The notes beneath the pieces were generated by a model. It was given only the letters and a program-made list of their open reading frames with translations, did no database searches and was not told the DNA's origin. A stretch of DNA of 64,000 bases, taken from a virus. The DNA lies in the IMG/VR virus record IMGVR_UViG_3300049893_000724, positions 1 through 64,000 of that record. The stretch is one strand, 5' to 3'. Below are positions 21,758 to 25,733 of this stretch, one piece after another (position 1 is the first letter of the stretch; every line of letters begins with the position of its first letter). The position numbers were made by a program, and so were the translations under genes.

Positions 21758-23983
21758 TTAGAAGATACCCAATATCTTTTTCTTCTTAGTTCTTTCTGGA
21801 CTTGGACAGGTTGCTCCAAAAATTGGTGCCTTTGGAACTCCACCTGTTGACTTCATAGCACCTGCCTTACCAGAACCAACAGGATTAGATCTTACAATCA
21901 CTGGTGGTTTTGATGGTGGAATTGGTGTTGATAATTTTGGTCTAGTTGAAGACAGTTTTATAACATTCATTGCAGTGTTATTAGTTTGATTAAGACCTGC
22001 AAGACCTCCACTTCCAAATTTTGGGGGACTAAATCCAAAAGAACCGTCAGACATCATAGAAGGTTTCTCTAACCCTTTACTTCCACCCTCCAAATACTTT
22101 GCACGATAATCTCTGATGGTTGTATCGGCATCTCTTAACTTCATTGCGTGTTCAGATTCTGCAGGAGATGCTCCACGACTTTCATAATATCCAGGACCAT
22201 ACGTTGAAGTTAATGCAACTGCATCACGATACGCTGCAGTCTCCGCCTCAGTGGGGATGGGAGGAACATCTGGAGTTACTTGCTGACCAGACGGAGTTGC
22301 TTGCTGTCCTGATTTATTTGGTGTTGGTTCTATTTCTGGAGTAGTTACTTTTGGCTTTGCCTGCGGAGAACCTAGATAAAAACTATTCAAATTAGCAACA
22401 AGACTTCCAGTTAATCCCTTTTTAACTTTTGGTGTTTGGTTTTCTGGTGGTGAAGCATAAGGAATTCTTGGTTCAGATGATGAAGTTAATTTATCCAATG
22501 AACTCGTTAGATTATTCAGTGCAGTTTGAACAGCAACTTCCGCAGCGGTTGGTTCATATGTTGATCCATAACCAAGAGTAGCACTAGCACTTCCTTGAGT
22601 TGTTTTACTTCCACCAGTGATATCTACTCCTATCCATCGTGTTTGACCAGTTCCAGGAGCTCCACCAAACGTTGTTCCTACCTTTAACATTCCTCCGCTG
22701 ACTGGGCCATCGCCAATTAGTCCACCACCTGCAGCATAAGTAGTCCCACTAATCATTCTTGGTCTGTTTGTTCCGCCGCCAGCAGCGTTCATTGACTCAA
22801 GTGTATCAACTCCATACTTTTGTACTGCTCCACGAGACATAACAAATTCACCATCACTTAACATCGCAGGAATTTTATCAACTCCTTTCTGCCCACTTAC
22901 ATATCCAGGTCCACCACCAAAAAATCCAAATAACTTTTTAAAATTTGCTAGTCCTCCACCAAAAAATCCAGGTGTCTTTGGTTCTTTCTCTTCTCCGCCA
23001 ATACCACCAAAGTTTTCAATACCACTACTTAAAGCCATGGTGGTGCCTACAGTTGCAGCGACTTGCAACCCAGCACCCAATAATTTTCCACCTCTGCCAC
23101 CTAAAAATCTAGCGACTCCTTTTGCACCAACTAATCTTGCAGCAAGTTGCACAAGTCTTAATGTACCTGCAATTACAAGTTTAGAAAGACCACCAACAAA
23201 TTTGCCAAACTGTGTTCCAAATCTTAGATAAAGTGCTAAAAGTTTTGGCCAATTATCTCCAAAAAATCTACCAATAACTTCTAGTTTTCTTTTATTTTCT
23301 GGATTACCAAACCATTCTAAAAGTAAAAATATAGATCTACCAATAAAGATAGCAGTAAAGTAATCAATAATTTTTTTCAGTAATGATTTAACTGGTGATA
23401 AGATTTTTTCTGCTACTTTAATTGCTGCCTTAAAACCACTTTCAAGTTTTGATTCTTGTAATGCTCTCTTTGCGTCCTCTGCTTCTTTTCTGGATTTTTC
23501 GTTCGCTTTCTTTTGATTTGTATTCTGTTGAGTTAGACTTTTAATAATTTCACCTAACAATCCAATAATTTCTTGGATGTCACTTTTCCCAGTCATCTTT
23601 TCAGTCGCTGGTGGAAGTGCTAACTGTTTAATTCCTGGGAGTAAGTTTTGTTTTTTTAGGTTAATACCAACCGCAGTTCCTTTTTTAAAACTTGCTGCTG
23701 TAATCTTTTTAACTTTAAATCTACCTTTCTTACCCTTTATTCTTTTCCATTCATTAGTAATCAATTCAACTTCTTCTGTTGCAACTCTCTGCTTGGTCAT
23801 TCTAGCAGCAGCCATTCTTTCTCTCAGAAGAGAAGAATAAGTATCATAGTCAATATCAAAAACATCCTCAAGACCAATCATCCTGAGAATTCTTTCATCA
23901 ATTTTTTCATTAACTAAAGCAGTCCCATTCTTTGCCTTTGATGGCATCAGTGCTGGTAAGGTTTTAGAAGAATTGGGTGCCAT
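21758..23983 (-). CDS. Tape-measure-like tail protein, 741 aa
   Basis: The N-terminal third is charged and coiled-coil-like (LTQQNTNQKKANEKSRKEAE). It is followed by hydrophobic helices (IIDYFTAIFIGRSIFLLLEW and others, about 210-330) and Gly-rich stretches. A segment near residue 375 reads VDKIPAMLSDGEFVMSRGAV followed by QKYGVDTLESMNA, the P-A-M-L-x-x-G-E-F-V motif familiar from phage tape-measure proteins. It starts 20 bases inside the end of the gp51-like frame, directly after the gp26 and frameshift unit, which is where tape-measure genes sit in many tailed phages. T4 has gp29 (590 aa) here. Which of the two large proteins sets tail length is not clear from sequence. Confidence 0.7.
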   Translation of the reverse strand: MAPNSSKTLPALMPSKAKNGTALVNEKIDERILRMIGLEDVFDIDYDTYSSLLRERMAAARMTKQRVATEEVELITNEWKRIKGKKGRFKVKKITAASFKKGTAVGINLKKQNLLPGIKQLALPPATEKMTGKSDIQEIIGLLGEIIKSLTQQNTNQKKANEKSRKEAEDAKRALQESKLESGFKAAIKVAEKILSPVKSLLKKIIDYFTAIFIGRSIFLLLEWFGNPENKRKLEVIGRFFGDNWPKLLALYLRFGTQFGKFVGGLSKLVIAGTLRLVQLAARLVGAKGVARFLGGRGGKLLGAGLQVAATVGTTMALSSGIENFGGIGGEEKEPKTPGFFGGGLANFKKLFGFFGGGPGYVSGQKGVDKIPAMLSDGEFVMSRGAVQKYGVDTLESMNAAGGGTNRPRMISGTTYAAGGGLIGDGPVSGGMLKVGTTFGGAPGTGQTRWIGVDITGGSKTTQGSASATLGYGSTYEPTAAEVAVQTALNNLTSSLDKLTSSSEPRIPYASPPENQTPKVKKGLTGSLVANLNSFYLGSPQAKPKVTTPEIEPTPNKSGQQATPSGQQVTPDVPPIPTEAETAAYRDAVALTSTYGPGYYESRGASPAESEHAMKLRDADTTIRDYRAKYLEGGSKGLEKPSMMSDGSFGFSPPKFGSGGLAGLNQTNNTAMNVIKLSSTRPKLSTPIPPSKPPVIVRSNPVGSGKAGAMKSTGGVPKAPIFGATCPSPERTKKKKILGIF

Positions 23984-24143
23984 TTAATTGTTGTTGTTTC
24001 GTTTTCTCTTCTTCTAGATGCTGCTTTAAAAGTTCAACATAGATATCGCGTTCCCACGGTATCATATTTTCAATCTCCGTTAATGAGTATTTATGGTACT
24101 GCATCAAGGAAAAGTTAAGACGAAAATAACTTTCTAGGTCCAT
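23964..24143 (-). CDS. 51: gp51-like baseplate hub assembly frame, 59 aa (probably also expressed as a -1 frameshift extension of gp26)
   Basis: The frame reads MDLESYFRLNFSLMQYHKYS, then LTEIENMIPWERDIYVELL. This resembles the conserved xxFxLMxxHxYSLxEIExMxPWERxIYV segment of T4-like hub assembly proteins (gp51/gp26 family). It overlaps the next gene (741 aa) by 20 bases. The same frame is open upstream to a TTTTTTC slippery heptamer inside gp26, with no stop in between (codons CGC ATA GCA CTG GTC CAT then ATG), so it can be made as a gp26 fusion of about 302 residues. It may also start alone at 24143. This matches the G/GT arrangement of tail-assembly chaperones. Confidence 0.8.
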   Translation of the reverse strand: MDLESYFRLNFSLMQYHKYSLTEIENMIPWERDIYVELLKQHLEEEKTKQQQLNGTQFF

Positions 24144-24154
24144 ATGGACCAGTG

Positions 24155-24874
24155 CTATGCGAAAAAAGATGCTAACCCTTCTAGTACTACTTCACTTTCT
24201 ACCTGAGTTTTTGGATTAGTAACCTTAACTTTATGAGAAAGTTTAGGCATTGTTTCAAAGAACTTCTCAATTTCTTTAAACTGAGATGAATTCATTTGTT
24301 CTAAAAACTCATTCAGTTCTTTTTTAGTCACATCTGAAGTAGACCAAACTTCATCCTCAGTATAAATTTTATCGATACAAGAAGCAATCAATTCAAATGA
24401 TTGATCCATTGCATTTGCATCAGTGAAATCAAAATTGTTTTTAATAAACTGTTCAAGTGATGGATACTTCATTTCCATCATAATATTTTTATCTACTTTA
24501 ATTTTATTTGTATGGTCTTCATTCTTTTGAACTTTGATTGAATCTAAATCAATTTTTACTGTTGTTGTAGTTTGTTCATCATCTGGACAGATTACATTAA
24601 CTTCAATTTCTTCACCAACAGACTTACCACGAATATTCAAAAACAAATATTCAATATCAAAGGTAGGAAGTGTTTCTACCTTAACTCCCTTTGTCAAAAT
24701 ACAATTCTTGATAACTGTTTTGATTGCATTAGTAATTTGCTTCGTATCTTCACTCTCCAAAGCAATTACTAATACCTTTTCTTCTTTTACTAGAAACGGT
24801 CTATATTGAATTGTTTCTCCCGTTGATGGCAATTCAACTTCATAAGTTGGCGTACTAATCTTAGGTAAAGGCAT
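24155..24874 (-). CDS. 26: Baseplate hub assembly protein gp26, 239 aa
   Basis: The N-terminus (STPTYEVELPSTGETIQYRP, then FLVKEEKVLVIALES) matches the T4 gp26-type hub assembly family. The rest contains an acidic beta-rich insert (VNVICPDDEQTTTTVKIDLD) and a helical end. The protein ends EGLASFFA, where the slippery site lies. A CATAAATA late promoter is 28 bases upstream of the ATG. The family assembles the hub and tape measure and is usually not part of the final virion. Assignment is from the characteristic N-terminal segment and its place before the tape-measure genes. Confidence 0.8.
   Translation of the reverse strand: MPLPKISTPTYEVELPSTGETIQYRPFLVKEEKVLVIALESEDTKQITNAIKTVIKNCILTKGVKVETLPTFDIEYLFLNIRGKSVGEEIEVNVICPDDEQTTTTVKIDLDSIKVQKNEDHTNKIKVDKNIMMEMKYPSLEQFIKNNFDFTDANAMDQSFELIASCIDKIYTEDEVWSTSDVTKKELNEFLEQMNSSQFKEIEKFFETMPKLSHKVKVTNPKTQVESEVVLEGLASFFA
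24161..24167 (-). other. Programmed -1 frameshift site TTTTTTC in gp26
   Basis: In the gp26 frame the minus strand reads GCA TCT TTT TTC GCA TAG. The heptamer T TTT TTC fits the X XXY YYZ slippery rule exactly in frame, two codons before the gp26 stop. A slip of -1 continues into the gp51-like frame without a stop. Many tailed phages use such a shift to make the longer tail-assembly chaperone from a gene just before the tape measure. Confidence 0.75.
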
Positions 24875-24911: not shown

Positions 24912-25733
24912 TTAAAATCCAGGTCCCAAACGCCCGATAAGATTTCCACCTACTGATCCTCCACCAAGAGGATTGGTTGTTAGGTTCTGCCCCACTTGTC
25001 CACCTATTTCCCCAGTCCTATCAAAACCATATTTTGGATTTATAAAAGTATCAATTTCAGACTTTTGTTTTACATTAAACTCTCCACTAATTAGGTATCG
25101 AGTGTATGTAAATGATACTGTGCATTTTAGTAAAGATGATGAATCATAAGAAACTGGCATCGAAGATATTGATATTGGATATGCCTGCAAAAATCTATAT
25201 CTAGTATATCTTCCATCATAGTCTCTTTCAAATTTATTAATATAAATTTCTGTTCTATAAAGGTTTGGGTAATTCACTCTATATGAAAAATTATCTAACT
25301 CAAGTGCATTATTAGGTGTTCCATCATTATCGGTAAATTGTTCATTTACAATAAAACTAATCCAATTTTCAAAAAATTTAATAATATTATGATCATGGTC
25401 AACATAAAAAGTAAAGTCCGCACGATCATCATATATTCTTCTATATGCATGTCTCTCTGTTACTCCAGTAAAATCATTATTAATTTCGTGAGTTGCTAAT
25501 GAAGAACCAGGAAGAGATGCTTCAGAACAAAGTATTGAATAAAGTTCTTTACTATTATTATCATAAGGAATTCCAATACCAGCCTTACTTTTATCAATAA
25601 ACCATTTTCTTACTTTTTCATTATCATTTCCTGGAGGATTAAACCAACATTCAAAATGAGAAGTTAAGGCAGGTCGTAAAAGTGCTGCCTTAATTTTAGA
25701 AACATTTTTTCTAGATGGTGCTGGCGACGCCAT
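24912..25733 (-). CDS. 54: Baseplate tail-tube initiator, gp54-like, 273 aa
   Basis: The protein has the pattern of the T4 tail-tube fold: FECWFNPPGND near the start, CSEASLPGSSLATHEI (compare the tube CKATALPxG segment), a long hairpin region, RADFTFYVDHDH followed by FFENWISF, and LLKCTVSFTYTRYLI at the end of the fold. It is longer than the tube protein gp19, which fits gp48/gp54 proteins that carry a tube domain. The C-terminal 45 residues are Gly-rich. Its divergent neighbour is the gp4 operon that includes gp48. gp54 is the best fit; a gp19-related variant is the alternative. Confidence 0.65.
   Translation of the reverse strand: MASPAPSRKNVSKIKAALLRPALTSHFECWFNPPGNDNEKVRKWFIDKSKAGIGIPYDNNSKELYSILCSEASLPGSSLATHEINNDFTGVTERHAYRRIYDDRADFTFYVDHDHNIIKFFENWISFIVNEQFTDNDGTPNNALELDNFSYRVNYPNLYRTEIYINKFERDYDGRYTRYRFLQAYPISISSMPVSYDSSSLLKCTVSFTYTRYLISGEFNVKQKSEIDTFINPKYGFDRTGEIGGQVGQNLTTNPLGGGSVGGNLIGRLGPGF

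Follow-up and report, generated by a model that had tools for sequence, protein, structure and literature searches.

Genes 26 and 51 of T4-like phages were reportedly proposed by Vladimirov, Gautam and Davidson to give, in several groups of T4-like phages, a long form made by frameshifting, and T4's own group is said to have separate genes for the short and long forms. The study itself, on genes 26/51 as chaperones of T4-like phages (2022, Virology 566:9-15), was cited in passages of PMC10885494 and PMC12846349; in such passages the former confirmed the two-gene variant and the latter mentioned slippery poly-T signals in the chaperone genes of T4-like phages. The locus described here resembles the gpG/gpGT pair of phage lambda, in which a single tail-module gene yields a short protein together with its -1 frameshift extension, and T4 has been described as an exception to G/GT frameshifting (PMC5009743). 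The likeness of gp26/gp51 to the lambda pair is one of design.

In the virus record IMGVR_UViG_3300049893_000724, a marine T4-like cyanophage, gp26 matched PF12322 at 261.1 bits (curated cut-off, 24.5), and a profile search identified it as the single PF12322 copy in the 184-kb record. The sequence-only reading had placed a T TTT TTC heptamer in the gp26 phase close to the gene's stop codon, and this was confirmed: on the minus strand, the 3' end of gp26 reads ...GCA TCT TTT TTC GCA TAG in its own frame, with one sense codon, GCA, separating the heptamer from the TAG (Table 1). After a -1 slip the codons would be CGC ATA GCA CTG GTC CAT ATG GAC... (R I A L V H M D...), in a frame that is open for 65 codons until a stop at 23964-23966. 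The expectation that the slip enters a gp51-like frame without meeting a stop therefore held, and the sequence bore out both the predicted S-F-F-R-I-A junction and the Met at 24143. The predicted fusion product is 238 + 65 = 303 aa. The gp51-like frame matched phrog_634, the "baseplate hub assembly catalyst" (E=6e-29), and a second match fell at the C-terminus of phrog_150, the family to which gp26 belongs (E=1e-5).

To estimate how often such a heptamer arises by chance, we counted in-phase sites in the window (the whole 64,000-nt stretch of DNA that was analysed), whose 57 ORFs of at least 100 aa offer 18,684 in-phase positions. Five in-phase T TTT TT(C/T) sites were found in these ORFs. The gp26 site was the sole T TTT TTC among them, and it alone lay at the end of a gene and opened a long -1 frame.

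Table 1. Features of the gp26/gp51 locus and its neighbours (positions in the window).
Feature	Coordinates	Strand	Remarks
741-aa ORF, directly downstream, tail/tape-measure candidate	21758..23983	-	phrog_35029 E=8e-52 (no function)
gp51-like -1 frame extension, RIALVHMDLESYF...	23964..24161	-	65 codons + stop; proposed C-terminal domain (TAC-C)
Hairpin core GGTCC-ATAT-GGACC, proposed stimulator	24137..24150	-	predicted fold extends outwards from core
gp26, 239 aa	24155..24874	-	PF12322 T4_baseplate E=1.1e-77; phrog_150 E=8e-83; proposed short form (TAC-N)
Slippery heptamer T TTT TTC, gp26 frame	24161..24167	-	read 24167..24161
Shine-Dalgarno-like AGAAGGG, proposed stimulator	24176..24182	-	moderate, -3.8 kcal/mol vs anti-SD
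Tail tube protein gene, directly upstream	24912..25733	-	phrog_45 E=4e-34; PF23849 E=8e-17

The heptamer was conserved to a high degree among relatives. The site and the -1 frame were present in every locus analysed of the 80 from the first viral-contig scan, and scans of viral contigs together with 22 annotated phage regions gave 334 distinct related loci. An in-phase T TTT TT(C/T) was kept in 332 of these, as T TTT TTC in 316 and T TTT TTT in 16, and in all 181 of the non-redundant loci; statistics across loci count related sequences as independent. Elsewhere in these genes, just 2 of the 197 other Phe-Phe pairs had the slippery pattern. One observation named beforehand as speaking against a frameshift, loss of the heptamer from close relatives with an intact gp51, was not made, the two loci that had neither form of the site being distant Ackermannviridae. 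A conserved in-phase X XXY YYZ heptamer, as expected of a bacterial -1 frameshift site, is thus present. In six loci (L356, L382, L401, L402, L404, and L416) the 0-frame extended 24 nt past the heptamer instead of the usual 3 nt.

The comparison of more than 300 loci also bears on whether gp51 is a gene of its own. Under that alternative, gp51 would be a separate small gene, translated from the Met at 24143 or by reinitiation just past the gp26 stop, and the heptamer would be incidental. Public records often annotate gp51 in this way. Among the 314 loci in which the conserved gp51 core motif was recognised, an ATG was present between the slip site and the core in 157, including this phage, as a separate gene would need; 85, however, had no ATG, GTG or TTG anywhere in this stretch. 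Of the 314 loci, 310 had exactly 15 codons between slip site and core. In addition, the -1 frame shows protein-level conservation ahead of the usual gp51 ATG: in the four -1 codons between the gp26 stop and that ATG, synonymous to nonsynonymous changes numbered 2176:1401 (with kin counted as independent), as compared with 598:4015 for one of the remaining frames and 274:3776 for the other. The putative gp51 ATGs mostly lacked a Shine-Dalgarno sequence, with 6 of 96 reaching -4 kcal/mol or lower, and a separate gene leaves the invariant heptamer unexplained. We consider a separate gp51 very improbable. What these loci do contain is the arrangement of a G/GT-type pair, a short gene with an overlapping -1 extension that needs no start of its own, and the comparison supported the earlier proposal that gp51 is a -1 frameshift extension of gp26 in this phage, across Kyanoviridae and in several other T4-like groups.

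Two T4-type phages, Merlin and AS-gz, provide a natural control. Two PF12322 genes were found in each of these genomes and one in each of the other 22 tested. Their gp51 is a separate protein of 249-250 aa whose first 200 residues match PF12322, and which aligns to phrog_150 (282 positions) over 13-281 in Merlin and 13-282 in AS-gz. By these profile matches, gp51 of Merlin and AS-gz is a single ORF that joins a gp26 to the extension. The gp26 gene of both phages lacks the site, Merlin encoding the same Phe-Phe as TTC TTT in place of the slippery pair; the slip site is thus gone in phages that encode the long form separately.

Signals flank the heptamer on both sides. A GAGG-type sequence was found about 7-9 nt upstream, with a strong GAGG in many relatives. 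The Glu codon at this signal was over-used as GAG relative to elsewhere (odds ratio 9.8), and the family-wide anti-SD energy of the upstream region was -6.1, versus -4.7 +/- 0.12 under synonymous randomisation. Predicted structure right after the site exceeded codon-preserving controls family-wide (z=-2.4), whereas predicted structure elsewhere in gp26 or gp51 gave z of about 0. In this phage the downstream structure was -9.7 kcal/mol against -4.7 kcal/mol in the codon-preserving control (z=-2.5). At the codon level, then, the family as a whole shows selection for the signal on each side of the heptamer, and stimulatory signals of the kind known from bacterial -1 frameshift sites are present family-wide with the exception of the S-RIM2 clade, which has little downstream structure (z about -0.7).

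The codon-preserving energy test was used in place of covariation of a single helix. Helix covariation of the downstream hairpin was not above shuffle in the clade of this phage or in the S-CAM4 clade, and it was marginal in the S-PM2 clade, where 41 of 1000 shuffles reached the observed value. A screen of all pairs was too noisy for a signal because the stretch is T-rich. Based on the lack of structure in S-RIM2 and on no single helix clearly covarying, the hairpins seem to differ between clades.

These flanks are also informative with respect to slippage of another kind, in which RNA polymerase would slip on the T6 run and altered mRNAs would enter the -1 frame by ordinary translation. A homopolymer T run is indeed present in nearly all relatives, but it is just six T long, the next base is C in 316 of 332 loci, and the X XXY YYZ phase is kept. 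Moreover, a selected Shine-Dalgarno-like sequence and hairpin on either side of the run are usual for ribosomal slippage. Slippage by the polymerase is, in our view, very improbable, and we regard free initiation of gp51 and transcriptional slippage alike as unlikely.

Three loci departed from the pattern. In the S-SCSM1 record (L083 3491-3520), an 11-nt insertion, AATCCTAATAG, lies directly after the gp26 stop and closes the -1 frame, while both the heptamer and gp51 are retained; we treat this phage as a qualified exception to the frameshift reading. The other two are the Ackermannviridae without the site (L099 1470-1500 and L101 2190-2220), in which an open -1 frame follows gp26 without a T6 run. 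The corresponding sequences are GGTTTTC in Serratia 3M and CTTTTTC in Vibrio 1.244.A, the former resembling the start of the slip site of phage T7 gene 10, which has G_GU as its first part (PMC5009743).

The surroundings of the locus had been likened to those of G/GT chaperones, directly before tape-measure genes. The tail-tube gene directly upstream agrees with such a position. The tape-measure label of the downstream genes was supported in part, as matches to tape-measure PHROGs were weak for the 741-aa ORF (E 7e-4), whose start overlaps the end of the gp51 frame, and covered only part of a 938-aa ORF (2e-13). A structural model of gp26 (pLDDT 87; input rows from viral-contig loci only) had the HK97 tail assembly chaperone 2OB9 as its top PDB match, which was not significant (E=0.73, prob 0.33), and a sequence-profile search of solved structures returned chance matches only. 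Lying just behind the tail-tube gene and built as a short and a long form, gp26/gp51 would by analogy fit a tail assembly chaperone of G/GT type.

The site, the open frame, their conservation and the coding constraint were all observed directly in the sequences, and from these we infer the slippage itself, its rate and the chaperone role. In our reading, gp26 and the gp51-like frame are very probably one tail assembly chaperone gene whose long form is made by a -1 slip. Most ribosomes would terminate at the gp26 TAG and release the 239-aa short form. A minority would shift one base backwards at T TTT TTC and produce the 303-aa long form, with the gp51 domain at its end. The slipping ribosomes would be held by the downstream hairpin, and the upstream Shine-Dalgarno-like sequence probably pairs with 16S rRNA and helps hold them. 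If the pair works as gpG/gpGT of lambda do, the tape measure would be coated by the short form, and the long form would bring in subunits of the tail tube.

Among the 22 public phage records examined, none carried a frameshift annotation at gp26/gp51. The gp51-like frame was unannotated in eight records (L081, L082, L088, L090, L094, L095, L096, and L099). We think it likely that marine T4-like phages obtain the gp51 domain mainly through the cassette of Shine-Dalgarno-like sequence, T TTT TTC and hairpin, that the separate "gene 51" in many public cyanophage records is therefore a misannotation, and that the full-length gene 51 of T4 is a paralogue of gp26 that has the extension joined to it in a single frame. 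If this is correct, the annotation of gp26/gp51 would need correction in hundreds of cyanophage genomes that now give gp51 as separate or omit it, and the T4 "baseplate hub assembly catalyst" would be tied to the proteins that serve other phages as tail assembly chaperones. It would also make this a well-conserved site for measuring frameshifting in marine cyanobacteria.

A frameshift chaperone of this kind was reportedly already predicted for some T4-like phages, and this phage is a further example. The codon-level tests and the loss of start codons add mechanistic detail; the 2022 study of Vladimirov and colleagues may already contain these, the flanking signals and this clade. Other systems are similar in layout. 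The frameshift signal of E. coli dnaX consists of an upstream Shine-Dalgarno-like sequence, the slippery heptamer A AAA AAG and a downstream hairpin, and the gp26/gp51 site has its three parts in the same order; the dnaX frameshift shortens its product, whereas that of gp26 would lengthen it. Finally, the chaperones of Vandenendeviridae and Andersonviridae share with gp26/gp51 a conserved -1 open frame and a poly-T site where the short gene ends, although these are different phage families and their site is GTTTTT rather than the T TTT TTC found here (PMC12846349).
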